NCBI RefSeq assembly: GCF_000519005.1
Contig: NZ_JAER01000012.1
Span: 1 to 64,000, forward strand
Origin: Nocardioides sp. J54
GTDB lineage: Bacteria > Actinomycetota > Actinomycetes > Propionibacteriales > Nocardioidaceae
Direction: 5' to 3'
Length of the DNA: 64,000 nucleotides
Positions within the stretch are counted from its first letter, which is position 1, and the number at the start of each line of letters is the position of its first letter. Position numbers and translations under genes: made by a program. This document shows positions 12,467 to 37,400 of this stretch, piece by piece. Below the pieces are notes generated by a model, which did not search any database, was not told the origin of the DNA, and was given only the letters and a program-made list of their open reading frames with translations.

Positions 12467-12472
12467 CGGCCG

Positions 12473-13879
12473 TCAGTCCAGCCCGCCGCTGGACTCCAGC
12501 ACGGACTGCTGCTGCCGGGCGATCTCGTCGAGAGCCTCACGCGGGTCCTTGGCGCCGTTGAGCGCGGCGTTCACGTTGGTGTTCTCGATGTCGATCAGGC
12601 GGGCGTACTCGGGCACGTTCCACATGTCGCGCAGGCGCGGGACCGACTCGGCGTACACCACGTTGAACGGTGCGGCGTCGAGGAACTCCGGCGACTGCAG
12701 CGCGTCGGTGCGCGAGGGCACGCCACCCGCGGCAGCCCACTTCTTCTGGACCTCCGGCTGCTGGAACCAGCGCATGAAGTTCAGCGCCTCGAGCTGCTCG
12801 GCCTCGGAGGTGTACGCCGAGACGTGCATCCCCATGCCGCCCAGCGGCACGAAGTCGGCGTCCTGGGACGGCAGGGTCGCGAAGCCGAGCTTGTCGAGGA
12901 TCTCCTCGCGGGTCTTGCCGAGCGTCGACTGGGCCGGGTCGAGCAGACCGCCGCTCGCGGCGATCCACTGGAAGGCGATGCACGCCTTGCCCTGGGCGAC
13001 GGCGGCGTTGACCTCGTCGATGAACCAGTTGCCCGAGCCCTTCGCGGTGAGCGGCTTCATCTGGTTGACGAGGACGTCCATGGCCTTGTGCCCGGCCTCG
13101 TCGTTGATGACGCCCTCGATCTTCCGGTCCTTGGACTCCCAGAGGTTGCCGCCGTACACGCCGTTCACCGTGTTGTAGGTGACGGCTGCTGCGTCGGAGC
13201 CGTTGGACTGGTGGAACGCGAGCCCGCTGACACCGGGGTTCTCGTCCTGGCAGGTCTTGGCCGCGGCGATCATCTCGTCCCAGGTCTTCGGCGGCTCCTC
13301 GCCGATGAGGTCCTTGCGGTAGATCATCGTCCACGTGTCGCCGAGCAACGGCAGGCCGTAGAGGCTCGCGTCCTCGTCGCGCTGACCGGTCTCGGCCTGG
13401 GGGTACTGGCCGTACGCCGCCAGGAGGTAGGGGTCGTAGGCATCGGTGTCGATGTTCTCCTCGACGAACTCGGTGATGTCGAGGATGTTGTCGTTCGTCA
13501 CGGCCTCACCGATGTGCTGCGAGTCCAGGACCGCGATGTCGAAGTCGGTCTGGCGCGCGGCGAACTGGGTGAACATGGCGTCGTGCCAGTTGGCGTTGGG
13601 CACCGTGTCGACCTTGATGGTCACGTTGGGGCGCTCCTTGGTGTACTCCGCGTTCGCGAAGTCCTCGAGCGCCTGCGCCGGCGGCCACTCGAACCAGATG
13701 AAGTTGAGGGTGACCGGGTCGTCGGTCAGGTCGTCGAGCTCGGACGGCGCCTCCTTGCTGGCGGGCTCGGAGTCGTCCCCGCACGCGGCGAGCCCGAGGC
13801 TCACCAGCATCGCGACGGCGGTGGCCCCCGCCAGCCGGGCGCGACGGGCCGGCCCTCGGGATCGGTTGGCGAATCGCAT
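12473..13879 (-). CDS. ABC importer extracellular solute-binding lipoprotein
   Basis: A 468-residue secreted lipoprotein. The signal peptide has a basic start (RFANRSRGPARRAR), a hydrophobic core and a lipobox LAAC with the lipidated Cys at 33. The mature part is a family-1 solute-binding protein, with LYGLPLLGDTWTMIYRKDL near residue 170 as a typical hinge-region segment. It is the binding component of the adjacent two-permease, two-ATPase importer. It follows the aldehyde dehydrogenase by 101 nt on the same strand. The ligand cannot be read from sequence. Confidence 0.9.
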   Translation of the reverse strand: MRFANRSRGPARRARLAGATAVAMLVSLGLAACGDDSEPASKEAPSELDDLTDDPVTLNFIWFEWPPAQALEDFANAEYTKERPNVTIKVDTVPNANWHDAMFTQFAARQTDFDIAVLDSQHIGEAVTNDNILDITEFVEENIDTDAYDPYLLAAYGQYPQAETGQRDEDASLYGLPLLGDTWTMIYRKDLIGEEPPKTWDEMIAAAKTCQDENPGVSGLAFHQSNGSDAAAVTYNTVNGVYGGNLWESKDRKIEGVINDEAGHKAMDVLVNQMKPLTAKGSGNWFIDEVNAAVAQGKACIAFQWIAASGGLLDPAQSTLGKTREEILDKLGFATLPSQDADFVPLGGMGMHVSAYTSEAEQLEALNFMRWFQQPEVQKKWAAAGGVPSRTDALQSPEFLDAAPFNVVYAESVPRLRDMWNVPEYARLIDIENTNVNAALNGAKDPREALDEIARQQQSVLESSGGLD

Positions 13880-13980
13880 TGTTGTCTCCTCGTTCCTTCG
13901 CGAGCGGGTGGTTCGGCTCGTGGTTCCTCAGGTTCTTGCGGGTGGTGGTGGTTGTGGGTGGTGCTGTTCTCGTTCGTGGA

Positions 13981-15459
13981 TCACCAGGACGTCGCGACGT
14001 ACTGGGCCTCCAGGAACTCGAGGAGCCCTTCGGTGCTCCCCTCGCGGCCGAGTCCGCTCTGCTTGGTGCCGCCGAAGGGGGCGGCAGGGTCCGAGACGAG
14101 GCCTCGGTTGAGGCCGACCATCCCGCTCTCGAGGCGCTCCGCCAGGCGGAGGCCACGGGCGAGGTCGGCCGAGTACAGGTAGCTGACGAGGCCGTACTCG
14201 GTGTCGTTGACGGAGCCGAGCACGGCCTCCACGTCGTCGAACCGGACGACCGGCGCCACGGGCCCGAAGATCTCCTCGCGCAGCAGGCGGGCGTCTGCGG
14301 GTACGTCGACCAGGACGGTGGGCGGGTAGAAGCAGCCGGGGCCCTCGCCCGGGCTGCCGCCGAGCAGGACGCGGGCGCCCCGGCTGACGGCGTCGGACAC
14401 CAGCTCGTCCACCTTGCGCACCGCCTCTGCGTTGACCAGAGGTCCGCAGTCGGTGACGTCGTCGGTGCCGGGGCCGACGGTGAGCGCACCCATCCGCTCG
14501 ACGAGACCGTCGACGAACGCGTCGTGGATCCCACCCTGGACGTAGAAGCGGTTGGCCGCCGTGCAGGCCTGGCCGCCGTTGCGCATCTTGGCCACCATCG
14601 CACCGTCGAGCGCGGCGTCGAGGTCGGCGTCGTCGAGGACGACGAACGGCGCGTTGCCGCCGAGCTCCATCGCGGTCTTGAGGACGCGGCCGGCGGCGAT
14701 CCCCAGCAGCACCCGGCCGACCTCGGTGGACCCGGTGAACGAGACCATCCGGGTGCGCTCGTGCGTCAGCATCGCCTCGACGACCGGACCGGGCGAGGAG
14801 GTGGTGACGACGTTGACCACGCCGGCGGGGAGGCCGGCCTCCTCGAGCAGCGCCGCGACCGCGAGTGCGGTGAGCGGTGTCTCCGCGGCCGGCTTGAGGA
14901 CGGTCGTGCAGCCCGCGGCCACCGCCGGCGCGATCTTCCTGGTCGCCATGGCCGCCGGGAAGTTCCAGGGCGTGACGAGCACGCTGACGCCGACCGGCTG
15001 GTAGGACACGAGCAGCCGGTTGGCGCCCGAGGGGGCCGTGCCGAGCTGGCCGCGCAGCCGCACCCCCTCCTCGGCGTACCACCGGAAGAACTCGGCGGCG
15101 TACGACACCTCCGCGCGGGCGTCGCCGAGCGCCTTGCCGTTCTCGAGGCTGATCAGCCGCGCGAGCGCCTCGCTGCGCTCCTGCATGAGGTCGAAGGCGC
15201 GCATCAGGACTCCGGCCCGGTGCCGGGGGGACGTCGCCGCCCACTCGGCCGCAGCCGCCGCGGCGGCGTCGACAGCGGCGACCCCGTCCTGCGGGTCGGC
15301 GTCGGCGACGGAGGTGAGCACCGTGCCGGTCGCCGGGTCGTTCACGTCGAGGCGGCGCCCGGTGGCCGAGCCGCGCCAGGCACCGCCGATGAGGAGGTCG
15401 GTCGGCTGGGCCAGCCCGGGCACGAGGGCCGGATGGACGGGCTGGGCGAACGCGGTCAT
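13981..15459 (-). CDS. NAD(P)-dependent aldehyde dehydrogenase (succinate-semialdehyde dehydrogenase-like)
   Basis: A 492-residue class I-type aldehyde dehydrogenase. The catalytic Cys is about residue 299 in GGQACTA and the general base Glu is in MELGGNAP. The motifs TPWNFPAAMATRK and SFTGSTEVG form the cofactor site and resemble GabD-type enzymes. ATG at 15459 overlaps the alcohol dehydrogenase stop (ATGA). In context it oxidises the aldehyde made by that dehydrogenase, so the operon imports an alcohol or polyol and converts it to the acid (inference). Confidence 0.9.
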   Translation of the reverse strand: MTAFAQPVHPALVPGLAQPTDLLIGGAWRGSATGRRLDVNDPATGTVLTSVADADPQDGVAAVDAAAAAAAEWAATSPRHRAGVLMRAFDLMQERSEALARLISLENGKALGDARAEVSYAAEFFRWYAEEGVRLRGQLGTAPSGANRLLVSYQPVGVSVLVTPWNFPAAMATRKIAPAVAAGCTTVLKPAAETPLTALAVAALLEEAGLPAGVVNVVTTSSPGPVVEAMLTHERTRMVSFTGSTEVGRVLLGIAAGRVLKTAMELGGNAPFVVLDDADLDAALDGAMVAKMRNGGQACTAANRFYVQGGIHDAFVDGLVERMGALTVGPGTDDVTDCGPLVNAEAVRKVDELVSDAVSRGARVLLGGSPGEGPGCFYPPTVLVDVPADARLLREEIFGPVAPVVRFDDVEAVLGSVNDTEYGLVSYLYSADLARGLRLAERLESGMVGLNRGLVSDPAAPFGGTKQSGLGREGSTEGLLEFLEAQYVATSW

Positions 15460-16739
15460 CGCGCACCTCCTGCTGCGGTGAGGTCGGGCTCGTCGAGGTC
15501 GTGCACGGTCGCGGAGGAGTCACGGAGCGCGGCGCGGTCGCCGGCGTACGCCGCCCGGACGATCTGCTCGACTGTGTCCACGTCGAGCGGCCGGGGGTTG
15601 TTGGCCACCAGCCGCTGGGCCCCCATCGCCTGCTCGGCGGTCCAGCGCAGCTGGTCGGCCGGCAGCCCGAGGTCGGCGAGGGAGGAAGGGATGCCGACCG
15701 CGTCGAGCAGCGCGGCGACCCGGTCGATCGCCTCGGTGGCGAGGTCCTCGGCGGAGGCGTCGGGCGAGGCGCCCATCGCCAGGGCGATCGCGGCGAGCTC
15801 GGGGATCCGGGCCGGACGGTTGAACTCCATCGCATAGGGCAGCAGTGCGCCCACCCCGAGGCCGTGCGCGGTGTGGGTCAGGGCCCCGACGGGGTACTGG
15901 ATGGCGTGCGCCACCGCGGTGCCGGCGCTGCCGAGCGCGAAGCCGCCGGCCGTCGCGCCGAGCATCATCGCCTCGCGGGCGACGAGGTCGTCCGGCGTGG
16001 ACCACGCTCGCTGCAGGTGGGCCGTGATGACGCGGACGCCGAGCAGCGCGAAGACGTCGGTCAGCTCGTTCTTGCCCACGAAGACCCGCTCGGTGCCGAC
16101 CTCCGCGACCACTGGACGTCGTACGGCGGTGAAGGCCTCGATCGCGTGGCAGAGCGCGTCGGCGCCGGCCGCCGCCGTGAGGCCGGGAGGGCAGCCGACG
16201 GTGAGCTCCGGGTCGCAGATCGCGGTGTGCGGGATCAGGTGCGGGCTCGAGATGCCCACCTTGCTGACCCGCTCGGGATCCGTCAGGACCGCGACCGGCG
16301 TGACCTCCGACCCGGTGCCGGCGGTGGTCGGGAGTGCGACGACCGGCACGACGGGGCCGGGGACGCGGAGCTCGCCGTAGTAGTCGGCAGGGTCACCGCC
16401 GTGGGTCAGGACGACGGCGACGGCCTTGGCGAGGTCCAGGCAGCTGCCGCCCCCCATCCCGACGATGACATCGGGCCCGATGCCGGCGGCCAGCTCGGCA
16501 CACTGGGCGACCTGGTGGACCGGGACGTCGGGCAGCACCTCGGTGTACGTCGTCACACCGACCCCCGCCTCCTCGAGGACCTGGACCAGCTCGGCGAACT
16601 CGGGGGTCGCGCCGAACCGGGCGTCGGTGCACACCAGGGCACGTCGGCCCAGGCCCGCAGTCATCGTCCCGAGCGCGCGCCGCTGCCCTGCTCCGAAGAG
16701 GACCTGACGCGGACCGCGCAGAACGCCGAGCATGCTCAC
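15456..16739 (-). CDS. Iron-containing alcohol dehydrogenase
   Basis: A 427-residue group III alcohol dehydrogenase. The nucleotide motif GMGGGSCLDLAK and the metal region GADALCHAIEAFTA followed by HTAHGLGVGALLP show the His ligands of the Fe-ADH fold. Start GTG at 16739 (VSMLGVLRG) is chosen because AAGGGAG lies seven bases upstream; ATG at 16733 is the alternative. First gene of the operon that continues into aldehyde dehydrogenase and the ABC importer, and divergent from the GntR-type regulator. Likely substrates are primary alcohols or diols. Confidence 0.9.
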   Translation of the reverse strand: MSMLGVLRGPRQVLFGAGQRRALGTMTAGLGRRALVCTDARFGATPEFAELVQVLEEAGVGVTTYTEVLPDVPVHQVAQCAELAAGIGPDVIVGMGGGSCLDLAKAVAVVLTHGGDPADYYGELRVPGPVVPVVALPTTAGTGSEVTPVAVLTDPERVSKVGISSPHLIPHTAICDPELTVGCPPGLTAAAGADALCHAIEAFTAVRRPVVAEVGTERVFVGKNELTDVFALLGVRVITAHLQRAWSTPDDLVAREAMMLGATAGGFALGSAGTAVAHAIQYPVGALTHTAHGLGVGALLPYAMEFNRPARIPELAAIALAMGASPDASAEDLATEAIDRVAALLDAVGIPSSLADLGLPADQLRWTAEQAMGAQRLVANNPRPLDVDTVEQIVRAAYAGDRAALRDSSATVHDLDEPDLTAAGGAR

Positions 16740-16804
16740 GGGGGGACTCCCTTGCGTGGTTCGGGATGGTGGGACCATCGGTCGTGGGAACCGGTTCGGA
16801 GGAA

Positions 16805-16826
16805 CGGCTACTTCTGGAAGTAGCCG
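16805..16826. promoter_or_regulatory. Perfect 10-bp inverted repeat, candidate GntR-family operator
   Basis: CGGCTACTTC and GAAGTAGCCG flank a TG spacer in the gap between the alcohol dehydrogenase operon and the GntR/FadR-type regulator. Its place in a divergent promoter next to a DNA-binding gene makes it the best operator candidate. A second motif, GATCCGATTT at 16838-16847, recurs as GATCGGATTT at 17788-17797. Confidence 0.6.
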
Positions 16827-16916
16827 ATTTCCTATACGATCCGATTTCGTGAACAATGCATGAACTGGAAGGCCGTGTCAACAGACTCGGGGGAAGATTC
16901 CATGGGAGGAATGCGC

Positions 16917-17696
16917 ATGGCTGGCGACCGACTGGTCCGGACCGATCCCGACTCCGCGACCGAGGCGAACGACCCCGAGCCGACCCGGCTCGGCAGCAGC
17001 TCGCCCCGCCACGGGAAGACCCGCGGCCGGATGGCGGACGAGGTGCACGCGACCTTGATGCGCGAGCTGATGTCGCTGCGGATCGTCCCGGGCGCCCGCC
17101 TCACCATCGACACGCTGGCCCGCGAGCTGGGCGTCTCGCAGACCCCGATCCGCGACGCGCTGAACCGCATGGAGGCGGACGGCCTGGTCGTCCGCGTGCC
17201 CAACGCGGGCTACCGCATCCCCCCGCAGATCACCCGCGACCGGTTCGAGGACATGGTCGAGGTACGACTGCTGCTCGAGCCCGCAGCGGCCCGCCGCGCG
17301 GCCGAACGAGCCACGAAAGCGCAGGTCAACGAGCTGCGGAGGATGATCGACGAGATGGCCGAGCTGGTCGAGGGCGGCGGCCAGGTGGCCTACGGGGACT
17401 TCGGCCTGCGCGACGCCGCGCTGCACGACCTGGTGGCCCAGGCGGCCGGCAACGAGCTGGTCCGGGAGGCGCTCGCCCGCCTGCACGCCCACGTCCACCT
17501 GTTCCGGCTCGTCTACGACACCCAGGTCACCTTCCTCGCGATGGGCGAGCACGAGGAGATCCTCAAGGCGATCGCCGCGCGCGACCCCGACGCGGCGGCG
17601 TACTCGATGCGGCAGCACATCCTGCTCTCGCGCGACCGCTTCCAGGTCCTCCTCGACCGCGCCGAGGCGTCCGCGGCATCGGCCGACGAGACCTGA
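16917..17696 (+). CDS. GntR-family regulator with FCD (FadR C-terminal) ligand domain
   Basis: A 259-residue regulator. The winged helix-turn-helix covers about residues 40-105 and contains IDTLARELGVSQTPIRDALN; the all-helical FCD domain follows, with metal/ligand-type positions in FGLRDAALHDLV and FLAMGEHEEIL. Start ATG at 16917 (MAGDRLV) has GGGAGGA six bases upstream; in-frame ATGs at 16902 and 16911 are possible. It is divergent from the alcohol dehydrogenase/ABC operon and probably represses it until an acid or alcohol intermediate binds. Confidence 0.88.
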   Translation: MAGDRLVRTDPDSATEANDPEPTRLGSSSPRHGKTRGRMADEVHATLMRELMSLRIVPGARLTIDTLARELGVSQTPIRDALNRMEADGLVVRVPNAGYRIPPQITRDRFEDMVEVRLLLEPAAARRAAERATKAQVNELRRMIDEMAELVEGGGQVAYGDFGLRDAALHDLVAQAAGNELVREALARLHAHVHLFRLVYDTQVTFLAMGEHEEILKAIAARDPDAAAYSMRQHILLSRDRFQVLLDRAEASAASADET

Positions 17697-20346: not shown

Positions 20347-20431
20347 CCTCTCGTGGGCACGGCGCGGCGGCAGGTGGGCCGGGTGGGCCGGGTCCCGCCG
20401 GCGACCGATGCTCCGTGCGAGACTCCCGGCC

Positions 20432-20797
20432 ATGGCGATCGATCCCAGCGGCAAGGACGTGAAGCGCTTCCTCGAGGAGGACCCGGACGGACCGGTGGTG
20501 ATGCTCAACCTGCTGCGGTTCGCCGAGGGCGGGCGCGAGCTCTACGACCAGTACGCCGAGGCCGTCACCACGACCTTCCTCCCGCGGTACGGCGGCAAGG
20601 TCGTCTACGCCGGCAGTGGCTCGACCGCGCTCGTGGCCGAGGACGGCCAGGCGTGGGACGCCGTGCTGCTGGTCCGCTACCCGTCGCGGGCGGCGTTCTG
20701 CCAGATGGTCGCCGACCCGGAGTACCAGCAGGTCACGCAGCTGCGGACCCGGGCGCTCGCCGAGGCCGTGCTCCAGCCCACCTCCGCCTGGGCGTAG
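20432..20797 (+). CDS. DUF1330-domain protein
   Basis: A 121-residue ferredoxin-like alpha/beta-barrel protein. The pattern VVMLNLLRFAEGG near residue 23, VVYAGSGST near 58 and LLVRYPSRAAFCQMVADPEYQ near 78 matches DUF1330. The function of this domain is unknown. ATG at 20432 (MAIDPSG) is preferred; an ATG 24 nt upstream is possible, and neither has a strong ribosome site. It probably ends the operon that starts at 17828. Confidence 0.75.
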   Translation: MAIDPSGKDVKRFLEEDPDGPVVMLNLLRFAEGGRELYDQYAEAVTTTFLPRYGGKVVYAGSGSTALVAEDGQAWDAVLLVRYPSRAAFCQMVADPEYQQVTQLRTRALAEAVLQPTSAWA

Positions 20798-20812
20798 CGG
20801 TAACCGGGCGAG

Positions 20813-20959
20813 TCAGGAGGTCGCGGCCAGGCCGATCAGCAGCGCGACAGCGGCAGCGCCGAGCGTCAGCCAGCACGCTTGGGACACACCACACGTCGGC
20901 GCCTGCCGGTGGCCCTCCGCCGACGCGTCGGTGCGGGCGGACGCCGCGTGGGCTGGCAT
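20813..20959 (-). CDS. Possible small membrane protein (48 aa)
   Basis: A 48-residue frame ending in a single hydrophobic helix (CWLTLGAAAVALLIGLAATS) after a polar, His/Ala-rich start. The ATG at 20959 lacks a good ribosome site. It would be downstream of the fused desaturase gene on the minus strand. The hydrophobic tail is the only coding-like feature. Confidence 0.3.
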   Translation of the reverse strand: MPAHAASARTDASAEGHRQAPTCGVSQACWLTLGAAAVALLIGLAATS

Positions 20960-21089
20960 CCTGCGTGGGGCGCGCGACCGGGGCGCGCCGGCGGAGGGGG
21001 TCTGCGAGGAGGGTCTCGACGAGCGGACGGGCGGCCAGGTGCTCCCTCGCACCCAGCCACCCCGGTCCGCGCTCCCCTCCGCGACGCCG

Positions 21090-23087
21090 TCAGGCGTCGT
21101 AGTCCACGCGGACCTCCTCGCTGACCGGGTGCGCCTGGCAGGTCAGCACGTAGCCGTCCGCCACCTCGGCGTCGTCGAGGGCGTGGTTCTGGTCCATGAC
21201 GGCCTTGCCGAGGAGGACCTTGGCGCGGCAGGTCCCGCAGGCGCCGCCTGCGCAGGAGTACGGCGGGTCGATGCCGGCCTGCAGCGCGGCGTCGAGGATC
21301 GACTCGCCGGTCGACGCGAGCTCGAAGGTCGATTCGACCCCACCCACGGACACGATGACCTGGCTGGTGATCTCCACGTCGACGGCCGACTCGGCCTCGG
21401 CGAGGTGGAAGACCTCCGAGAGGACCTGCCCCCGGGCGGTGGGTGCGAGGGCACCGCGCACGTCGTCGACCATCTCCTGCGGTCCGCAGAGGAACCAGGC
21501 GTCGACGTCGGCCGCGTCGGGCACGAGGCTCGTGACCAGCGCCGGCGAGATGCGGCCCGCCAGCGCGGCCCCGGGCTCGCGGGACAGGACGCGGTGGACG
21601 ACGAGGCGCTCGCCGTACCGCTCCTCCCATGCGCGGATCTCGGCGTCGAACATGGTCGAGTCGGCGGTGCGGTTGCCGTAGACGAGGGTGAACCGGCTCC
21701 GCGGCTCGCAGTCGAGCGTGGTGGGGATCGTCGACATCATCGGCGTGATGCCCGAGCCGGCGACCACCGCGACGTGGTGGCGCGCCTGCCCGGCGTCGAG
21801 CGGCACGTTGAAGGATCCGGTCGGCGTCATCACGTCGAGGAGCTCGTCGACGGCGAGATCCTGGTTGACGTAGGTCGAGAACACGCCGCCCTCGATCTGC
21901 TTGACGGCGACGCGCAGGGTGTTGGCCTCGACCGGCTCGACGAGCGAGTAGCTGCGCCGCACCTCGACGCCGCCGACCACGGCCCGCAGGGTGATGTGCT
22001 GGCCCTGTGTGTAGCGGTACTCCGCCGCCAGGTCGGCCGGGACGTCGAAGGTGACCACCGTGCTGTCGTCGGTCAGTCGCTCCACCGCGGAGACCCGCAG
22101 CGGGTGGAAGACCGGCCGGCGGGTGGTGCCGTCGCCGGCGCTCGGGGCGAGCTCATCGGTGAGGCGGCGCCACGTCCGGTACTCGCTGGCCGTCAGCGAC
22201 CGGCCGAACCAGGTCGAGATCGCCGCGTTGCGGTCGAGGTAGGCCTGCTCGTTGCGCCGCCAGGCGCGGACGTAGCGGTAGAACGGGATGCTCGGGTGCA
22301 GGTGGTGCACCAGGTGGTAGTTCTGGTAGACGAACAGCGGCGTGAGCAGCGCCTCGCCGCCGACACGGACGCGGGTTGCCTGGTACCTGTCCTCGCGCTG
22401 CGTCCGGGTCAGGCCGTGGTGCGGCAGGTAGTCGAACCACCAGGCGAGGAACATGATCCCGATCCGCTGCGGGATGAACCACGCCCACAGCAGCTCGTGG
22501 CCGTAGCCCGCGGCGGCGACAGCGGCGAAGGCACCGGCGACGACCGTGAACACCAGCAGGACCGAGACCACCTCGCGCCGCGGCCGGTCGTTGATCCGGC
22601 GCAGGTAGTAGACGATGTACCAGATGTCGATGGTCGCCCACCGGAACGGGTACTGCCAGGCCGGACCCTCGTCGCACCACTTGTCCGGGTCGATCGACTT
22701 CGGCTCGTTGGTGTTGCGGTGGTGCTCGATGTGGATGAACTTCACCAGCGGGAAGGTCGCCCACGGCACCACCAGCGGCACGGACAGGTGACCCAGCGCG
22801 TCGTTGACGCGGGTGTTGGTGCTGATGGCGTGGTGGGTCGCCTCGTGCAGCACGCTGAACATCAGGAACGTGACCGCGGCCCCCATGGGCACCGTCACCC
22901 ACGGCGACCAGCCCCAGGCCAGGGCGCCGGCCAGCTCGATCCCGAAGAGCGCCAGCGTGCCGACGTACAGGGCCAGCGTGGGCCAGGCCATCCGCGGCAC
23001 GCGCTCGCCGGGATCCGGCAGCCCGGTGACCGGCTGGCGCAGCTGCGGCCGGGCGGTGTCTTCACGGAGTCCGGTTGACGTGTCCAT
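21090..23087 (-). CDS. Self-contained membrane desaturase/hydroxylase fused to FNR-type reductase and 2Fe-2S ferredoxin
   Basis: A 665-residue three-part enzyme. The N-terminal membrane part (about 1-320) has the three His boxes of the fatty-acid desaturase/carotene hydroxylase superfamily: HEATHH (81-86), HIEHH (119-123) and HLVHH (258-262), with helices between. An FNR-type reductase follows (about 335-560): RRSYSLVEP for FAD and VVAGSGITPMMS plus FLCGPQEMV for NAD(P)H. A plant-type ferredoxin ends the protein, with CAGGACGTC and a later Cys in LTCQAHP. Start ATG at 23087 (MDTSTGL). The fusion lets NAD(P)H drive the di-iron centre without separate partners. The acyl-CoA ligase and aldehyde dehydrogenase genes diverge from it, suggesting a lipid or hydrocarbon substrate. 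Confidence 0.9.
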   Translation of the reverse strand: MDTSTGLREDTARPQLRQPVTGLPDPGERVPRMAWPTLALYVGTLALFGIELAGALAWGWSPWVTVPMGAAVTFLMFSVLHEATHHAISTNTRVNDALGHLSVPLVVPWATFPLVKFIHIEHHRNTNEPKSIDPDKWCDEGPAWQYPFRWATIDIWYIVYYLRRINDRPRREVVSVLLVFTVVAGAFAAVAAAGYGHELLWAWFIPQRIGIMFLAWWFDYLPHHGLTRTQREDRYQATRVRVGGEALLTPLFVYQNYHLVHHLHPSIPFYRYVRAWRRNEQAYLDRNAAISTWFGRSLTASEYRTWRRLTDELAPSAGDGTTRRPVFHPLRVSAVERLTDDSTVVTFDVPADLAAEYRYTQGQHITLRAVVGGVEVRRSYSLVEPVEANTLRVAVKQIEGGVFSTYVNQDLAVDELLDVMTPTGSFNVPLDAGQARHHVAVVAGSGITPMMSTIPTTLDCEPRSRFTLVYGNRTADSTMFDAEIRAWEERYGERLVVHRVLSREPGAALAGRISPALVTSLVPDAADVDAWFLCGPQEMVDDVRGALAPTARGQVLSEVFHLAEAESAVDVEITSQVIVSVGGVESTFELASTGESILDAALQAGIDPPYSCAGGACGTCRAKVLLGKAVMDQNHALDDAEVADGYVLTCQAHPVSEEVRVDYDA

Positions 23088-23327
23088 GGCGCCACCGTAG
23101 GGCGCGCCGCCGGGGCGTGGCCTGTGCAGAAGTACAACGCTGGGCGGAGCGCTTGGACGGGCCACCGAGCCGGGAGCGCCCGCGCTGTCGTCGGCCTCCC
23201 CGACGCCGCCGCCCGGGTGGGCATTGGGCGGGCGACCAACGCCCCGCTGCAGATTTGGCCCTGCGCACGTATCGCCCCGGTGTGGCGTTGCCGACACTCG
23301 TCGTCACCATCCCGAGAAGGAGCTTCG

Positions 23328-24800
23328 ATGACGAACCTGGGCGCACTGCTCACCACGACCGCCGCGGCCCACCCCGAGCGCGCCGCCATCCGCATGGACG
23401 ACGCCGTGCTGTCCTACAGCGCGCTGGACGCCGCGAGCGCCCGCATGGCCGGCCACCTGGTCGCCGCGGGGGTCCGCCCGGGCGACCGCGTCGGCGTGAT
23501 GCTGCCCAACGTGCCGTACTTCCCCGTCGTCTACTACGCCGTGCTCCGCGCCGGCGGCGTCGTGGTGCCGATGAACGTGCTGCTCAAGGAGCGCGAGACC
23601 GGCTTCTACCTCAGCGACTCGGGCGCGAAGCTCGTCGTCGCGTGGCACGACTTCCTGCCGGCCGCCCAGGCGGGCGCCGCCGAGGCCGGTGCCGAGTGCC
23701 TGTCCGTCGTGCCCGGCGAGCTCGAGAAGCTGCTGGCCGCCGCCACGCCGGCCCCCGAGGTCGTCGACCGCGACGACAGCGACACGGCCGTGATCCTCTA
23801 CACCTCCGGCACCACCGGCAAGCCCAAGGGTGCCGAGCTCACCCACGCCAACCTCCGCAGCAACGTCGAGACGGTCGTCGCGATGCTCGAGCTGACCCCG
23901 GAGGACGTGATCCTGGGCGCGCTCCCCTTGTTCCACTCCTTCGGCCAGACCGCCGGCCTCAACGCCGCCATCGCCTCCGGCGCGTGCCTGAGCGTGATCC
24001 CGCGCTTCGACCCCGCCAAGGCCGTGGAGATGCTGGACCGCGACGACGTCACGATCTTCGAGGGCGTGCCGACCATGTTCTCCGCCATGCTGCACACGCC
24101 CGGGCGCCCCACGCACGGCTCCCTGCGCCTGTGCGTCTCGGGCGGCGCGGCCATGCCGGTCGAGGTCATGCGCGGCTTCGAGGAGGCGTTCGGCTGCATG
24201 GTCCTCGAGGGCTACGGCCTGTCCGAGACCTCGCCCGTGGCGTCATTCAACCACCCCGACCGCGAGCGCAAGGCCGGGTCGATCGGCACCCCGATCGCCG
24301 GGGTCGAGATGAAGCTCGTCGACGTCCGCGACGACGGCGTGGGCGAGATCGCGATCCGCGGCGCCAACGTGATGCGCGGCTACTGGCACCGCCCCGACGC
24401 GACCGCCGAGGCGATCGACGCCGACGGGTGGTTCCGCAGCGGCGACCTCGCCCGTGTCGACGAGGACGGCTACTTCTTCATCGTCGACCGCTCGAAGGAC
24501 ATGATCATCCGCGGCGGCTACAACGTCTACCCGCGCGAGGTCGAGGAGGTCCTCTACGAGCACCCGGCGATCGCCGAGGCGGCGGTCGTCGGCATCCCGG
24601 ACGCCGAGCTCGGTGAGGAGGTCGTCGCGGTGGTCGCCTTCCGCCCCGGCGCGGAGGCGGACCCCGACGAGGTCCAGCGCTTCGTGCAGGACCGGGTCGC
24701 TGCCTACAAGTACCCCCGCAAGGTCTTCGTCCGCGACGAGCTGCCGAAGGGGCCCACGGGCAAGATCCTGAAGCGCGACATCCAGGTGGTGCCGGCGTGA
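23328..24800 (+). CDS. Long-chain acyl-CoA ligase (AMP-forming)
   Basis: A 490-residue ANL-superfamily ligase that activates a carboxylic acid to its CoA thioester via an acyl-AMP. The phosphate loop YTSGTTGKPKG starts at residue 158, the adenylation motif GYGLSETSPV is near 298, and the C-terminal lysine motif GPTGKILKRDI is at the end. ATG at 23328 (MTNLGAL) has GAGAAGGAG upstream. Its stop overlaps the aldehyde dehydrogenase start (GTGA). The 240-nt divergent gap with the fused desaturase carries both promoters. Confidence 0.9.
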   Translation: MTNLGALLTTTAAAHPERAAIRMDDAVLSYSALDAASARMAGHLVAAGVRPGDRVGVMLPNVPYFPVVYYAVLRAGGVVVPMNVLLKERETGFYLSDSGAKLVVAWHDFLPAAQAGAAEAGAECLSVVPGELEKLLAAATPAPEVVDRDDSDTAVILYTSGTTGKPKGAELTHANLRSNVETVVAMLELTPEDVILGALPLFHSFGQTAGLNAAIASGACLSVIPRFDPAKAVEMLDRDDVTIFEGVPTMFSAMLHTPGRPTHGSLRLCVSGGAAMPVEVMRGFEEAFGCMVLEGYGLSETSPVASFNHPDRERKAGSIGTPIAGVEMKLVDVRDDGVGEIAIRGANVMRGYWHRPDATAEAIDADGWFRSGDLARVDEDGYFFIVDRSKDMIIRGGYNVYPREVEEVLYEHPAIAEAAVVGIPDAELGEEVVAVVAFRPGAEADPDEVQRFVQDRVAAYKYPRKVFVRDELPKGPTGKILKRDIQVVPA

Positions 24801-26335
24801 CGACCACGACGAAGGCCAGGAAGCGCGCCGCGGCGGCGCAGCCGGAGCAGATCCGGGTCGACAACCCCGCCACCGGCGAGGTCCTCACCCACGTGCCGAA
24901 CCTGACCGCGGCCGAGGTGGCCGAGGTCGCCGCGCGCGCCAGGGCGGCACAGCCGGGCTGGGAGCAGCTCGGCTTCGAGGGCCGGGCCGCCGTGCTGCGT
25001 CGGATGCAGCGCTGGGTCGTCGACCACGCCGACGAGGTCGCGCGCACGATCTGCTCCGAGACGGGCAAGGCCTACGAGGACGCGCTGCTCGCCGAGATCA
25101 ACTACGGGGCGGCAGCGTTCGGCTTCTGGGCGAAGCAGGCCCCGTCGTACCTCGCCGAGACCCGGGTGCGCTCCGCGCAGCCGCTGGTCGCCGGGAAGAA
25201 GCTGGTCCAGCGCTACCGCCCGATGGGCCTCGTCGGCGTCATCGGCCCGTGGAACTACCCGCTGACCAACTCCTTCGGTGACTGCATCCCGGCGCTGGCC
25301 GCCGGCAACGCCGTGCTGCTCAAGCCGTCCGAGCTGACGCCCCTGACCTCGCTGCTGCTGGCCGAGGGCCTGGCTGCGAGCGGGCTGCCGGACGGCGTGT
25401 TCAACGTCGTGACCGGCACCGGCGCGACCGGGTCGGCGCTCGTCGACGAGGTCGACATGGTGATGTTCACCGGCTCCACCGCGACCGGGCGCAAGGTCGC
25501 GGCCCAGGCGGCGCAGCGGCTCGTCCCGGTGTCGCTGGAGCTCGGGGGCAAGGACCCGATGATCGTGCTGGCCGACGCCGACCTCGAGCGGGCGGCCACG
25601 CACGCGGCGTACTACTCGATGTTCAACTGCGGGCAGACCTGCATCTCCATCGAGCGCTGCTACGTCGAGGCACCCGTGTACGACGAGTTCGTCGACCTGG
25701 TCACGAAGAAGGTCACGGCGCTGCGCCAGGGTGTCCCGGGCGGCCCGGGGAGCGTGGACGTCGGCTCGCTCACCTCGCCCGCGCAGGTGGACATCGTCGA
25801 GCGCCACGTCCGTGACGCCGTCGCTGCCGGCGCGCGGGCGCTGACCGGCGGGCAGCGGCCCCACCGTGAGGGCCTCTGGTTCCCGCCCACCGTCCTGGTG
25901 GACGTGGACCACGACATGACCATCATGCGCGAGGAGACCTTCGGCCCGACCCTGCCCGTCATGAAGGTCGCCGACGCCCAGGAGGCTGTGCGGCTGGCCA
26001 ACGACAGCGAGTACGGGCTGTGCGGGTCGGTGTTCGGCCGTGACCTCGAGCGTGCCGAGGCCGTCGCACGTCGGCTCGAGGTCGGGGCGGTCACGGTCAA
26101 CGACGCCCTGGTGAACTACACCGCGCTGGAGCTGCCGATGGGTGGCGCCAAGCCGGCGTCCGGGATCGGGCGCCGCCACGGCAAGGAGGGCATCACCAAG
26201 TACTGCCGTCAGCAGTCGGTGCTCGTCTCCCGCTGGCACCTGCGCCGCGACCTGCACACCTACCCCTACCGGGCGAGCCGCACCCGCGTGCTGGCGCGGC
26301 TCCTGGCCGTCCTCAACCGGGGTGCGAAGGACTAG
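24797..26335 (+). CDS. Aldehyde dehydrogenase, long-chain/fatty aldehyde type
   Basis: A 512-residue NAD(P)-dependent aldehyde dehydrogenase. Catalytic Cys282 lies in NCGQTCIS and Glu248 in LELGGKDP. The C-terminal extension after about 455 is basic (YPYRASRTRVLARLLAVL) and could be a membrane-associating tail, as in membrane-linked fatty aldehyde dehydrogenases. GTG at 24797 overlaps the ligase stop. With the ligase it would convert a fatty aldehyde to acid and then acyl-CoA. Followed by a strong terminator hairpin. Confidence 0.9.
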   Translation: MTTTTKARKRAAAAQPEQIRVDNPATGEVLTHVPNLTAAEVAEVAARARAAQPGWEQLGFEGRAAVLRRMQRWVVDHADEVARTICSETGKAYEDALLAEINYGAAAFGFWAKQAPSYLAETRVRSAQPLVAGKKLVQRYRPMGLVGVIGPWNYPLTNSFGDCIPALAAGNAVLLKPSELTPLTSLLLAEGLAASGLPDGVFNVVTGTGATGSALVDEVDMVMFTGSTATGRKVAAQAAQRLVPVSLELGGKDPMIVLADADLERAATHAAYYSMFNCGQTCISIERCYVEAPVYDEFVDLVTKKVTALRQGVPGGPGSVDVGSLTSPAQVDIVERHVRDAVAAGARALTGGQRPHREGLWFPPTVLVDVDHDMTIMREETFGPTLPVMKVADAQEAVRLANDSEYGLCGSVFGRDLERAEAVARRLEVGAVTVNDALVNYTALELPMGGAKPASGIGRRHGKEGITKYCRQQSVLVSRWHLRRDLHTYPYRASRTRVLARLLAVLNRGAKD

Positions 26336-26540: not shown

Positions 26541-28292
26541 CTACGCCTTCGCGTCCTTGCCGCCCACCACGAAGAGCGGGAGCCGCAGCGCGGCCGGTGC
26601 GGTCGGCGGCACCACCGGGCGGGCCGGGGCCACCGGGGCGAGGCGCTCGTACGACGAGCCGAGGGCCGGCCGCTGGTCTGCCTCTCCCTTGTTGGGCCAC
26701 AGCGACATGGCGCGCTCGGCCTGGGCGGTGATCGTGAGGCTCGGGTTGACCCCCAGGTTCGCCGAGATCGCGGCCCCGTCGACGACGTGCAGCCCGGGGT
26801 GCCCGTAGACCCGGTGGTACGGGTCGATGACGCCCGTCCGAGCGGAGTCGCCGATGGGGCAGCCGCCGAGGAAGTGCGCGGTCATGGGGATGTTGAAGAT
26901 CTCGCCCGTGGTCGAGTAGGAGCCACCGTCGATCCTGGCGCTGATCCGGCGCACGACGTCGTTGGCCACCGGCAGCCACGTCGGGTTCGGCGCGCCGTGC
27001 CCCTGCCGGGAGGTGAGCCGGGCACGCTTGCCCTTGCGCCCCTTCTTCGGGAACACGGTGATCGAGTTGTCGCTGGTCTGCATGACCAGGGCGATGATGG
27101 TCCGCTCCGGCCAGCTGCCCAGTCCCAGCACGGTGGAGGCCAGCAGGCCGGGGTGGCGCACCGCCTGGCCGATCCACCTGACCCAGCGCGGCACGCGACC
27201 ACCACCGTCGGTCATCAGCGTCAGCAGCAGGCCCATGAGGCCCGACCCCTTGCCGTAGCGGACCGGCTCGACGTGGGTGACGTCGTCGGGGTGGATCGAC
27301 GACGTGATCGCGACTCCGTGGTGGAAGTCGTACTTGTCCTTGTTGCGCATCTTCGTGCTGGACGCGCACAGCGCCTCGGAGTTGGTCCGGGTCAGGTAGC
27401 CCAGCCGGTCCGAGAGGTTCGGCAGGTCTCCGGAGCGCCGCATGCCGTGCAGGAGCTCCTGCGTCCCCCACGTCCCGGCGGCGAGCACGACCTGGCCCGC
27501 GGTGATCGTCGTCGTACGACTCGCGGATCGTCCCGTCCGGTGCGTCACCACGTCGTAGCCGCCGTCCGGGCGCTGGCGGACCGCGCGGACCGTGGTGCGC
27601 TCGCGCACCTCCGCCCCGGCCCGCTCAGCCAGGTAGAGGTAGTTCTTGAGCAGCGTGTTCTTCGCGTTGTGGCGACAGCCCGTCATGCACTCGCCGCACT
27701 CCAGGCAGCCGCGGCGCTCCGGACCGGCGCCGCCGAAGTACGGGTCCGGCACCGCCTGGCCGGGCTGCTTGGTGCCGTCCGCACCGAAGCAGACCCCGAT
27801 CGGCGTGGGCCGGTAGGTGTGGCCGACGCCCATGTCCTCGGCGACCTGCTTCATGATGTCGTCCGACGGGGTGACCGTGGGGTTCTCGACGACGCCGAGC
27901 ATCCGCTTGGCCTGGTCGTAGTAGGGCGCGAGCTCCGACTTCCAGTCGGTGATGTGCGCCCACTGCGCGTCCTCGTAGAAGGCCGGCGACTTCGGCTCGT
28001 ACAGGGTGTTGGCGTAGTTGAGGGAACCACCGCCGACACCGGCGCCGGCCAGCACGACGACGTCGCGCAGCAGGCGGATCCGCTGGATGCCGAAGCAGCC
28101 CAGGCGCGGTGCGAAGAGGAAGCGCCGCACGTCCCACGACGTCCTGGCGAACTCGTCGTCCTCGAAGCGGCGGCCCGCCTCCAGCACGCAGACGCGGTAC
28201 CCCTTCTCCGTCAGCCGCAGCGCGGTGACCGATCCGCCGAACCCGGAACCGACGACGACGACGTCGTAGTCGTTGGCCTGGTTGCCCTTCAT
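26541..28292 (-). CDS. GMC-family flavoprotein oxidoreductase, ChoD (cholesterol oxidase)-like
   Basis: A 583-residue FAD enzyme. The dinucleotide motif VVVVGSGFGGS lies at residues 11-21 and the GMC signature GAGVGGGSLNYANTLY at 83-98; the C-terminal TAHFLGGCPIGDS and NLGVNPSLTITA segments contain the expected catalytic His/Asn region. Cys196, 199, 202 and 206 form a CxxCxxCxxxC pattern in CLECGECMTGC, also present in mycobacterial ChoD as I recall. Members oxidise sterols or long-chain alcohols. It sits downstream of the mce operon on the same strand after a 161-nt gap, fitting a steroid or alcohol oxidation role. Substrate unproven. Confidence 0.85.
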   Translation of the reverse strand: MKGNQANDYDVVVVGSGFGGSVTALRLTEKGYRVCVLEAGRRFEDDEFARTSWDVRRFLFAPRLGCFGIQRIRLLRDVVVLAGAGVGGGSLNYANTLYEPKSPAFYEDAQWAHITDWKSELAPYYDQAKRMLGVVENPTVTPSDDIMKQVAEDMGVGHTYRPTPIGVCFGADGTKQPGQAVPDPYFGGAGPERRGCLECGECMTGCRHNAKNTLLKNYLYLAERAGAEVRERTTVRAVRQRPDGGYDVVTHRTGRSASRTTTITAGQVVLAAGTWGTQELLHGMRRSGDLPNLSDRLGYLTRTNSEALCASSTKMRNKDKYDFHHGVAITSSIHPDDVTHVEPVRYGKGSGLMGLLLTLMTDGGGRVPRWVRWIGQAVRHPGLLASTVLGLGSWPERTIIALVMQTSDNSITVFPKKGRKGKRARLTSRQGHGAPNPTWLPVANDVVRRISARIDGGSYSTTGEIFNIPMTAHFLGGCPIGDSARTGVIDPYHRVYGHPGLHVVDGAAISANLGVNPSLTITAQAERAMSLWPNKGEADQRPALGSSYERLAPVAPARPVVPPTAPAALRLPLFVVGGKDAKA

Positions 28293-28453: not shown

Positions 28454-29029
28454 TCAGACCGGGTCGAGGCCGGCGATGAGCCACTCGCCGTCGACCTCGA
28501 CCATGGTGACCTCGACCCGACTGCCGGTGACGGCGGGCACGGACTTCCCGGCGGTGGTGGTCTGGGTCAGGAAGACGAGGACGACGACCCGGTCGCGGTC
28601 CGCCGAGACGACGCCGGCCGCACTGACGACGGCCGCCGTGCTGATCTTCCGCTTCCTCGCCGTCGGCTCGACGGCGTCCTCCAGGATGCGCTGGTAGTCG
28701 GCGGTGAAGTCTCCCGTGGTCTGGGCCAGCGCGCGGTCGAGGTCCTCCTCGAGCGACGCGGCCCGGTAGCTGAGCAGGTCGGGCACGCGGGCAGTCGCCG
28801 CGGCCAGTGCGTCCGCCCTGGCCGTGGTCAGGCCGGCGGCGCGGTGGGCGCCGAACGCCGCGGTGCCCGCCAGGGCAGCGGCGAGGACCAGGGCGACGAC
28901 GGGAGCGAGGCGGCGCACTGCGGCCGTACGACGTGCGCCGTCGCCGGCGTCCTGCTCCACGTCCTGCCCGGCGTCGTTCCCGGTGTCCTTCCCGGTGTCC
29001 TTCCCGGTGTCTGCGTCCAGTGCGCTCAC
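28454..29029 (-). CDS. Mce-associated membrane protein (Mas), distal
   Basis: A 191-residue protein with one transmembrane helix (about 42-66) and an extracytoplasmic domain typical of Mce-associated proteins, ending in VEVTMVEVDGEWLIAGLDPV. The N-terminus has an Asp/Gly/Thr repeat (DTGKDTGKDTGND) from a 12-nt tandem repeat. GTG at 29029 overlaps the stop of the preceding Mas gene (GTGA). Such proteins are thought to stabilise Mce complexes. Last gene of the mce operon. Confidence 0.85.
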   Translation of the reverse strand: MSALDADTGKDTGKDTGNDAGQDVEQDAGDGARRTAAVRRLAPVVALVLAAALAGTAAFGAHRAAGLTTARADALAAATARVPDLLSYRAASLEEDLDRALAQTTGDFTADYQRILEDAVEPTARKRKISTAAVVSAAGVVSADRDRVVVLVFLTQTTTAGKSVPAVTGSRVEVTMVEVDGEWLIAGLDPV

Positions 29030-29529
29030 GACACGAACTCCAGTCCCGAGACCAGCCACTTCTCGTCCACCTCGCTGAGCTCGACCCGCAGGCGGTAGTT
29101 GCGCGGTTCGGCCTTCTTCGTCGACTTGTTCCTCACCGACCCGGCGGCGGCAACGATCACCGTCGCCCGGTCCTCGCCCAGCTCCACCACACCGGCGGAG
29201 ACGACCTCACCGGTGGCGGTCACCTTGTTGTCCACGAGGGCCTTCCTGAGCTGCTCGGCCTGCGCCTCGAGCTCGGTCCGGAACCCGGCCGTGGCGCCGT
29301 CGAGCAGTGCGTCCAGGTCGGCCTCGGAGGTCGAGGAGCTGATGTCGACCAGCCCGGCGACCTCGGCGCTCGCCGCCGCGACGACCTCCTCCGCGTCGGA
29401 CGCGCGCTGGCGCTCGTCGGACCACGCCAGGCCCCGCTCGACCGACAGCCCCAGCAGCACCAGCGTCGCCGCCAGCAGGACCAGGCTGCGTCGGCTGGCA
29501 CCGGTGATCCAGCCGCGCACGGCGCTCAT
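29026..29529 (-). CDS. Mce-associated membrane protein (Mas), proximal
   Basis: A 167-residue protein with one N-terminal helix (about 13-30) and an exported domain ending in LSEVDEKWLVSGLEFVS, parallel to the paralogue downstream. ATG at 29529 (MSAVRGW) overlaps the MceF-type stop (ATGA). The two Mas proteins share the order helix, helical linker, small alpha/beta domain, which fits a pair made by duplication. Confidence 0.85.
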   Translation of the reverse strand: MSAVRGWITGASRRSLVLLAATLVLLGLSVERGLAWSDERQRASDAEEVVAAASAEVAGLVDISSSTSEADLDALLDGATAGFRTELEAQAEQLRKALVDNKVTATGEVVSAGVVELGEDRATVIVAAAGSVRNKSTKKAEPRNYRLRVELSEVDEKWLVSGLEFVS

Positions 29530-30866
29530 CGACGTCCTCCCACGGTCAGGGGGCCCAGGACCAGGAGGGTCCACAGGTCGTCCGCCGAGGTGGTCTCGTC
29601 GTCGACGGTGATCGAGCCGGACGAGTCGTCGCCGCCCTTGCCGACCGCGAGGTCGTAGGCGACCTTCCCGCTGGTCTCGGGCCAGACCCCGGCGCCGAAC
29701 TCCAGCCCGCACGAGGCCGGGAGCGGTCCGCGGAGGTCACCCTCGGGACACGGCAGGTTGCGGGCGCCCCGGACGGCTGCGGGGTTGTCGGGCGCGATCT
29801 TGCAGTGGGCGAGGTGGTCCACGTCGCGGGTGGTCAGCCGCGAGGGGCTGCGACGCTGGTCCGGAGGCACGTAGCCCGTGATGCAGGTCGGCGGGTCGTT
29901 GAGCGTCCCGCGCAGGTCGAGCTGGACGTCGCCGAACTCGGCGCGCGGGTTGACCGCGCTCTGCACCCTGGCGACCGTCGCCGGGTAGACCACCAGCGTC
30001 TGCCGCAGCTCGGGCAGGTAGGTGTTGAGCACCTCGGCGTTCGTGGTCAGGTTGGCCAGCAGCATCGGCAGCACCTCCTGCTGGTCGGAGATCGCGCCGG
30101 TGGCCGCGTCCAGCCCGCCGGGGCCGTCGGCCAGCAGCGCACGCAGGTCGGCACTGTCGTCCCGGGCCAGCTCGGCGGTCACGTCGTCGAGCGAGTCCGC
30201 CCACGAGCGCGTCGACGGCCCCAGGTCGCGCTGCGTCTCCAGGACGGGTTGCAGCGCCGAGATCAGCTCCCGCGTGGCGCGGACGTTGGTCTGCGCCTCG
30301 GCGAGGAGGGTCGCGGACGACTGGACCAGCTCGTTGAGCTCCGGGCCGGTGCCGCCCAGGCCGTCGTCGACCTGCGCCAGCACCGCCCGCGTCTCCTCCC
30401 TGGGGACCGACTCGAGGAGCCGGTTGAGCGAGTCGAGCACGGGTGCGATCTGGGGAAGGTCGGTGGCGCGCTCGCGCGGGATGCTCGCGCCCTGGGCGAG
30501 GAGGTCGCCCGTCACGTCACCCTCGTGGACGAGGTCGACGTACTGCTCCCCGATGGCGGAGGTGCTGTGCAGCTCGGCGCGCACGTCCGCGGGGATGTCG
30601 ATCCCGTTGTCGATGCGCAGCGTGGCGACGGCACCTGCGTCGCTGACCTCGAGGTCGGAGACGATGCCGACCTTCACCCCGCGGTAGGTCACCGACGCCT
30701 TCGGGTAGAGCCCGCTCGCGTCGGCGAACTCGACGCTCACGTCGTACACGCCGATGCCGAGCATGGCCGGCACCCGGGCGTAGTTGAAGAACGCCATGCC
30801 CAGGGCGACCACCGCGAGCACCGCGAAGATGCGCAGCTGGCGCTTGATGAGAGGAGTCAGCAGCAT
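29526..30866 (-). CDS. mceF: Mce protein, sixth of the operon (MceF-type)
   Basis: A 446-residue Mce-family protein: transmembrane anchor at about 10-28, MlaD/MCE domain at about 37-115 (VSVEFADASGLYPKASVTYRG region), then a long helical tube-forming region and a C-terminal Cys-containing domain (CITGYVPPDQR, CKIAPDN, CPEGDLRG). ATG at 30866 overlaps the MceE stop as TGATG. Six such subunits assemble into a tunnel that carries lipids across the envelope to the YrbE permease. Confidence 0.9.
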   Translation of the reverse strand: MLLTPLIKRQLRIFAVLAVVALGMAFFNYARVPAMLGIGVYDVSVEFADASGLYPKASVTYRGVKVGIVSDLEVSDAGAVATLRIDNGIDIPADVRAELHSTSAIGEQYVDLVHEGDVTGDLLAQGASIPRERATDLPQIAPVLDSLNRLLESVPREETRAVLAQVDDGLGGTGPELNELVQSSATLLAEAQTNVRATRELISALQPVLETQRDLGPSTRSWADSLDDVTAELARDDSADLRALLADGPGGLDAATGAISDQQEVLPMLLANLTTNAEVLNTYLPELRQTLVVYPATVARVQSAVNPRAEFGDVQLDLRGTLNDPPTCITGYVPPDQRRSPSRLTTRDVDHLAHCKIAPDNPAAVRGARNLPCPEGDLRGPLPASCGLEFGAGVWPETSGKVAYDLAVGKGGDDSSGSITVDDETTSADDLWTLLVLGPLTVGGRR

Positions 30867-36540: not shown

Positions 36541-36547
36541 GTGGTGA

Positions 36548-37399: not shown

Positions 37400-37400
37400 G

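Follow-up and report, generated by a model that had tools for sequence, protein, structure and literature searches.

Three-domain, self-sufficient membrane hydroxylases are already known among the AlkB alkane monooxygenases, though in reversed domain order, and the cytochromes P450 (P450s) of the CYP116B type are their haem analogue. Here we compare with these a 665-residue fusion protein from Nocardioides sp. J54, encoded at 21090-23087 on the minus strand of a 64,000-nucleotide stretch of contig NZ_JAER01000012.1; it is probably a self-sufficient, membrane-bound, non-haem diiron hydroxylase acting on an aliphatic lipid or hydrocarbon. Throughout, the window is that whole 64,000-nucleotide stretch, and the own genome is the genome that carries it, rated 100% complete and 4.75 Mb in size.

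The three-domain AlkB with N-terminal ferredoxin and reductase (ferr_ferrR_AlkB) has been expressed and is active (PMC8918992); it is cited as needing NADH only and as preferring C10-C12 alkanes (PMC12903215), and the hosts named for it are Leptospira, Limnobacter and Polaromonas (PMC10113152). Like it, the Nocardioides protein holds a ferredoxin, a ferredoxin reductase and a putative membrane diiron hydroxylase in one polypeptide. Compared by description, however, the redox domains come first there and are followed by AlkB, whereas the order in the fusion is oxygenase, reductase, ferredoxin, and the catalytic domain of the fusion is CrtR-like, with a Pro at the position of the AlkB Glu. The initial annotation, made from the sequence alone, had counted a characterised enzyme with the same architecture as a refutation; ferr_ferrR_AlkB comes near to being one, but differs in domain order and catalytic family. 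The oxidoreductase-AlkB of Pseudomonas putida EM2-4 (754 residues, with the oxidoreductase at 1-333 and the membrane oxygenase at 334-754) is described as active on n-octane and n-decane (PMC12903215). It too has both functions in one chain, again comparing by description, but with the oxidoreductase first and AlkB last, and its authors call it a hydroxylase plus desaturase.

The CYP116B enzymes represented by 6laa (CYP116B46, a self-sufficient P450 with FMN; PMC7260179) and 6kbh ("type IV self-sufficient" in its PDB title) likewise combine an oxygenase with a flavin reductase and a [2Fe-2S] ferredoxin on a single polypeptide, keep these last two in the same C-terminal order and match the reductase half in fold at Z 25-26; there, though, the oxygenase is a haem P450 rather than a membrane diiron domain, and CYP116B46 has FMN where the fusion probably has FAD. 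AlkB-rubredoxin proteins (AlkBG, and L001 on contig C68 of the own genome) resemble the fusion in being membrane diiron hydroxylases with a fused electron carrier, and AlkB-AlkG 8f6t matches in fold, but they carry rubredoxin only, with no reductase found in the protein, and have the Glu ligand in an EHYG motif. With this AlkB-rubredoxin, at least three candidate aliphatic oxygenases coexist in the own genome. That genome also has two FA_desaturase genes (L003, L004), each downstream of a separate FAD/NAD/Fer2 reductase gene, with gaps of 79 and 27 bp, pairs that we take to be of the Rv3229c/Rv3230c type. They set the same kinds of domain side by side as the fusion does, but as two genes, reductase first, and both halves stand on long separate branches from the fusion in both trees; the contrast with separate reductases that the initial annotation had drawn thus holds within one genome. 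The open-licence PMC literature searched yielded no description of a PaaE-type tail at the C-terminus of a CrtR-like domain.

Architecture and conserved motifs

The gene and its two halves lie as follows:

21090-23087, minus strand: 665-residue fusion, read as membrane diiron oxygenase, FAD/NAD reductase and [2Fe-2S] ferredoxin (translation, Pfam, NCBIfam, alignment)
22137-23027, minus strand: catalytic His-box membrane domain, residues 21-317, with FA_desaturase at 59-291 (Pfam; domain folded alone)
21093-22109, minus strand: PaaE-like reductase and ferredoxin, residues 327-665 (TIGR02160 score, fold matches)

The translation runs through 665 residues in one frame to a single stop, which bears out the earlier statement that the fusion is continuous and free of frameshifts. 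Pfam places FA_desaturase (PF00487; 59-291, 104 bits), FAD_binding_6 (330-427, 45 bits), NAD_binding_1 (442-544, 52 bits) and Fer2 (583-654, 62 bits) on it, each over its curated cut-off. In 29/29 aligned fusions the His-box histidines H81 and H85, H119, H122 and H123, H223 and H224 (a PHH motif), and H258, H261 and H262 are invariant, as are the flavin motif R378-x-Y380-S381, the nucleotide motif G444-S-G-x-T448 and the ferredoxin cysteines C612, C617, C620 and C650. Domains and motifs together confirm the claim of a single 665-residue gene carrying His boxes, an FAD/NAD(P)H module and a C-terminal plant-type ferredoxin. The fusions form two clades, 65-75% (clade A, own copy aside) and 47-49% (clade B) identical to that of the window; they differ in the third His of box 1, H86, which the aligned clade A rows share and for which those of clade B have Tyr.

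With three His boxes in a multi-helix membrane domain, the protein belongs to the FA_desaturase/hydroxylase superfamily (class III diiron); on architecture alone, with oxygenase, flavin reductase and ferredoxin in one chain and their cofactor motifs intact, it would also count as a self-sufficient oxygenase. Measured against the 82% identical copy of N. luteus, all three modules are under purifying selection, dN being well below dS in each (0.070/0.416 for the His-box domain, 0.153/0.465 for FAD/NAD, 0.041/0.561 for Fer2). The start at the ATG at 23087 matches that of the N. luteus copy (MDTT...), the 735-codon open reading frame (ORF) starting at 23297 being only the mechanical maximum of the frame, and the long antisense ORF at 20616-23078 (plus strand) presumably arises from high G+C.

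Electrons from NAD(P)H would pass to an FAD, rather than FMN, in the middle module and on to the C-terminal [2Fe-2S] ferredoxin. The ferredoxin, on a flexible linker, might then dock from the cytosolic side onto the helical domain at the N-terminus, where a histidine-ligated diiron centre would activate O2 and hydroxylate, rather than desaturate, an aliphatic chain. Residues 281-324, which are of low confidence in the full-length model, are consistent with such a linker.

The catalytic domain

The reductase half filled the fold search made with the full-length protein, so the catalytic domain was folded alone (pLDDT 77.8; predicted TM-score, pTM, 0.79). The model matches AlkB-AlkG 8f6t at Z 12.2 (root-mean-square deviation, rmsd, 4.6; 252 aligned) and SCD1 4ymk at Z 6.2 (rmsd 5.3, 183 aligned). 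Foldseek returned only two matches under E 0.01, 8xks_K (Z 17.6, rmsd 3.5, 250 aligned) and 8xqw_M (Z 16.7). Both score above AlkB, and both belong to chloroplast Ycf2/Orf2971-FtsHi complexes. When PDB sequences were searched with a profile of the domain, nothing came up at E up to 10. By profile score the domain appears nearer to hydroxylases than to acyl desaturases, though far below cut-off: the first NCBIfam match is the CrtR hydroxylase NF045688, at 122 bits against a cut-off of 475, followed by GntB hydroxylase (60), CrtW (22) and the desaturase DesA (22), all below cut-off.

CrtR, the best curated profile for the domain, is also the top match for the three stand-alone relatives scanned (L114, L116 and L036), so that a carotenoid (beta-carotene) hydroxylase has to be considered. 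The score falls far short of that family, however, and phytoene/squalene synthase (PF00494) has no match in the complete own genome, while the same search rings in 7/14 control genomes. With no carotenoid precursor enzyme found in the host, this scarcely credible reading was rejected.

The iron ligands of AlkB are nine His and one Glu (PMC10113152), and in FtAlkBG the ligand Glu271 stands beside the ligand His272 in an NYxEHYG motif (PMC10113152). When the fusion is aligned by MAFFT with the AlkB of the own genome, P222-H223-H224 (DYLPHHG) falls under E-H-Y (NYLEHYG), a placement that rests on this single sequence alignment, hhalign having given nothing useful. Since the Glu position aligns with Pro222, the fusion is not filed as AlkB. 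The initial annotation had proposed placing the His-box domain by phylogeny among AlkB, desaturases and carotene hydroxylases: it is not AlkB-like in its ligand motif and not near the acyl desaturases by profile score. A first tree, including AlkB and other distant rows, had branches of over 7 changes per column and was not used for placement but rebuilt minus five rows; the rebuilt tree still holds one very long row (S_L137) and leaves clades A and B and their nearest stand-alone relatives unresolved.

The fusion might instead be a self-sufficient acyl-lipid or acyl-CoA desaturase, putting a double bond into fatty acids. Its Pfam domain is FA_desaturase, SCD1 is among the fold matches, and the divergent CoA ligase described below is of the long-chain type, but DesA scores well under both CrtR and GntB, the neighbourhood is one of oxidative catabolism, and the own genome already has the two FA_desaturase genes beside separate reductases as well as a third, for which no reductase ORF was seen within the fetched 3.7 kb. 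We regard a desaturase as unlikely, if the most probable of the alternatives considered.

The reductase-ferredoxin half

Residues 327-664 reach 370.7 bits with the PaaE profile TIGR02160, below its cut-off of 420.8. In fold this half matches GcoB 5ogx (Z 27.2, rmsd 2.4, 236 aligned), phthalate dioxygenase reductase 2pia (Z 27.1, rmsd 4.9, 315 aligned) and the self-sufficient P450s 6kbh (Z 25.9, rmsd 4.7, 315 aligned) and 6laa (Z 25.3, rmsd 5.6, 317 aligned), and many other ferredoxin/flavin reductases score nearly equal to these. It is unlike PaaE in being fused and in its genomic company: PaaA/PaaC (PF05138) has no match in the own genome, the same search ringing in 4/14 control genomes, so the PaaE-like tail has no paa partner there.

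A tail this close to PaaE, a stand-alone reductase subunit, could in principle be a general reductase for other oxygenases, its fusion being incidental. The missing PaaA/PaaC argues against this, as do the reductase and ferredoxin that adjoin the P450 of the window and the keeping of the fusion across two clades at about 47% identity (among rows chosen as fusions), and we consider it very improbable.

Genomic neighbourhood

Between the fusion and position 49697 the window encodes:

23328-24800, plus strand: acyl-CoA ligase, divergent from the fusion (AMP-binding 314.8 bits)
24797-26335, plus strand: aldehyde dehydrogenase, its start overlapping the ligase end (Aldedh 481 bits)
26541-28292, minus strand: GMC oxidoreductase, cholesterol-oxidase-like, candidate alcohol oxidase
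28454-38258, minus strand: mce lipid-import operon (MlaE permease 37401-38258; MlaD/Mce4_CUP1 29526-31142)
38499-39734, plus strand: PucR-type regulator (HTH_30, GGDEF_2)
39763-40986, minus strand: ferredoxin reductase beside the P450 (79% identical to the N. luteus gene adjoining the fusion)
41045-42445, minus strand: CYP153A-type P450, of the alkane/fatty-acid omega-hydroxylase family (phmmer; 89% identical to the N. luteus gene adjoining the fusion)
42561-42881, minus strand: [2Fe-2S] ferredoxin beside the P450 (Fer2 37.6 bits)
44895-46745, minus strand: DUF3556 membrane protein, between an FAD oxidoreductase and a CoA ligase (711.8 bits)
46747-48213, minus strand: second acyl-CoA ligase of the island (AMP-binding 314.7 bits)
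48408-49697, plus strand: second PucR-type regulator (31-34% identical to the PucR directly upstream of three clade B fusions)

Its CoA ligase, aldehyde dehydrogenase, GMC enzyme, Mce importer, PucR genes and P450 system of the CYP153A type make the window look like a terminal-oxidation island. The initial annotation had noted that the fusion is divergent from fatty acid activation genes, as the ligase and dehydrogenase on the plus strand, opposite the fusion, confirm; its putative lipid or hydrocarbon oxidase also fits the wider island of P450 trio, GMC, mce and PucR, of which it had made no use. In NCBIfam the first ligase comes closest to a subfamily of long-chain fatty acid CoA ligases (471 bits; cut-off 476). 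Six Mce4_CUP1 matches, some below cut-off, lie between 29979 and 36168 of the mce operon, whose second permease and two small genes are assigned by position only. By phmmer the P450 scores 699 bits with 5fyf (labelled "cytochrome P450", presumably a CYP153A), 666 bits with 8b2p, a "cytochrome P450 alkane hydroxylase", and 476 bits with 3rwl, CYP153A7.

The Mce importer would take up a lipid or hydrocarbon, which the fusion, alongside the CYP153A-type system, would convert to an alcohol; the GMC enzyme may then carry the alcohol to the aldehyde and the aldehyde dehydrogenase the aldehyde to the acid, which the CoA ligase would activate for beta-oxidation, presumably in that order. The alk system has AlkB, AlkJ, AlkH and AlkK for this, and by analogy the proposed island pathway would follow its logic with other parts.

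Two related loci place the parts still closer together. In N. luteus the fusion is immediately preceded, on its own strand, by a ferredoxin, a P450 and a reductase, and in N. daejeonensis mce genes, fusion and GMC share one strand with gaps of 11 and 16 bp. Within the fetched flanks, mce genes occur at 9/30 clade A loci and 1/12 clade B loci. The mce type of the window can be told apart by its first permease (>=74% identity, the listed paralogues reaching <=57%). Going by coordinates, 7/16 genomes have it within 15 kb of the clade A gene, and of the 11 genomes with a clade B gene 1 has it within 4 kb of that gene and 2 at 33-34 kb. Across the 98 genomes drawn from the genus, 16 have both this mce type and the fusion, 5 the fusion only, 3 the mce type only and 74 neither (Fisher p 1.7e-11, uncorrected for relatedness or genome size). 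Seventeen regions with this mce type in other genomes, six of which adjoin a clade A gene and are viewed from the far side, include PucR in 14, GMC in 9, always upstream of the mce operon and on its strand, and the CYP153 trio in 4; one additional region (L154) has the trio as well. The trio of G016, G065, G037, G014 (C6) and G034 (C39), with a P450 66-68% identical to that of the window, stands beside the same mce type.

In clade B, 11/12 loci have a PucR gene immediately upstream of the fusion and co-oriented with it, and in the twelfth the match is weaker (26%) and sits on the opposite strand; the PucR domains were checked in one clade B and one clade A example. An aldehyde dehydrogenase is divergent from the fusion in 8/30 clade A loci.

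The GMC and mce genes also bring in a different substrate, a sterol or other steroid, imported by Mce and hydroxylated in its side chain or ring. The curated family closest to the GMC protein is cholesterol oxidase (NF058674, 548 bits; cut-off 850), and the Mce proteins match Mce4_CUP1, the "cholesterol uptake porter", a match shared by the other mce operons of the own genome, where 37 such matches on six contigs (C13, C18, C24, C27, C46 and C4, the window) suggest six or seven mce operons in 4.75 Mb. The genome also encodes KshA beside a reductase (KshA_C 277.5 bits; at E 1e-40 NCBIfam gave no match for this KshA-like protein or for the three L003/L004 proteins given, which Pfam matched), and two clade B loci have, after the fusion, a gene that matches DUF1295 and 5-alpha-steroid-dehydrogenase. 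On the other side, CYP153 is an alkane and fatty-acid family, and the main text of two N. simplex steroid transcriptome papers, searched by term, does not contain the word "desaturase". The window has no exact match to what we take to be the KstR-type consensus, a weak test since only 0.04 sites were expected by chance. A steroid substrate seems to us rather improbable, somewhat more so than a desaturase.

Several observations weigh against an aliphatic hydroxylase working within such an island. The choice of hydroxylase over desaturase rests on weak profile scores; the full-length model, at pTM 0.47, gives no confident prediction of domain docking; and the GMC enzyme, being nearest to cholesterol oxidase, suggests steroids no less than fatty alcohols. 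In 21/30 clade A loci there is no mce gene in the fetched flanks (the upstream flank being truncated by a contig end in L006, L011 and L023), and a single 8-row branch (100/99) of the tree holds all six of its mce-linked clade A loci, so the link may be a single event. The CoA ligase adjoins the fusion in the window only, and the CYP153A-type gene in N. luteus only, being 18 kb off in the window. The 20 neighbours scanned in 16 clade A loci are mostly unrelated to one another, and the only ones fitting the island are a PucR (L010), a GMC (L012) and a ferredoxin reductase (L006). Self-sufficiency would allow the fusion to persist, as it does, in so many different neighbourhoods, though this is no proof of it.

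On its other side the fusion has a DUF1330 protein (20408-20797, plus strand) beside it, and a DUF1330 gene is also found 2.7 kb from a distant catalytic-domain relative on plasmid pNL1. Further along, 11528-17696 holds ABC transporter genes, a solute-binding protein, an aldehyde dehydrogenase, an iron alcohol dehydrogenase and a divergent GntR regulator, whose nearest NCBIfam family is a phosphonate regulator, below cut-off.

Distribution and origin of the fusion

A scan of genome contigs gave 36 loci, with the fusion matched over nearly its entire length in 28 and over one half or less in 8; they come from Nocardioides, Pimelobacter, Marmoricola, Aeromicrobium, Amycolatopsis, Mycolicibacterium and two bins of higher rank. 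Twelve repeated loci, L019 (a full clade A fusion on under 6000 bases) and the short loci L042-L051 had been left out before loci were counted, and neighbouring genes come from an uncurated gene caller, which shortened some starts and called a single gene in L033.

Within the genus of the window the fusion is present in 21/98 genomes, the own one included, clade A in 16 and clade B in 11, with six carrying both; two clades of the same fusion in that many genomes mean that it is no assembly accident. With an alignment query at E 1e-150 it was found in 29/198 genomes of the family and 7/394 of the class (own included in each), two of the seven lying outside the family, and among 396 genomes of the phylum it was in the own genome only, with the stand-alone catalytic domain in four. 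The fusion is scarcer beyond the genus, where the counts are lower bounds because only 3 to 6 candidates per genome were scored.

The nearest tail-less relatives of the catalytic domain are stand-alone "fatty acid desaturases" at 42-49% identity, including one on Mycobacterium intracellulare and M. avium plasmids. Among the ORFs called near five of them (L114, L116-L119) there was no PaaE-like protein (blastp E 1e-5) that would mark an operon precursor, and no gene order ancestral to the fusion was found there. One origin of the clade A and clade B fusions is not rejected: holding the clades together in the catalytic-domain tree gave an approximately unbiased (AU) p of 0.565, and in the reductase tree they join at 92/47 support, which is not firm. 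On the M. intracellulare plasmid the relative (L114, 2262-3233, ~47-49% identical) is in a row with genes annotated as 1-aminocyclopropane-1-carboxylate synthase, glycosyltransferase and non-ribosomal peptide synthetase, and is possibly a lipopeptide tailoring enzyme. On a Nostoc plasmid a distant relative (L137, 4968-5780) shares its gene row with a nitric oxide synthase oxygenase, SDR and aminotransferase genes, in what looks like a natural-product cluster.

Significance

Taken more broadly, and as a suggestion that we hold only tentatively, the two clades may represent a non-AlkB family of membrane diiron oxygenases, found mainly in Nocardioidaceae and made self-sufficient by a PaaE-type module. 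It would be a third terminal-oxidation enzyme beside AlkB-rubredoxin and CYP153A, serving substrates delivered by Mce and switched by PucR, with clades A and B specialised for different substrates.

A review states, citing a 2001 source, that no ferredoxin-fused desaturases had come to light (PMC8918992); whatever reaction it catalyses, the present family places a ferredoxin on a desaturase-type domain. Membrane diiron hydroxylases are awkward to work with, as their redox partners must be found and supplied, and a one-gene, non-AlkB version would be a ready tool. For the actinobacteria themselves, the link between one type of Mce importer, a CYP153A-type P450, a GMC enzyme and the fusion would give an Mce system a testable class of substrates, the aliphatic lipids or hydrocarbons.

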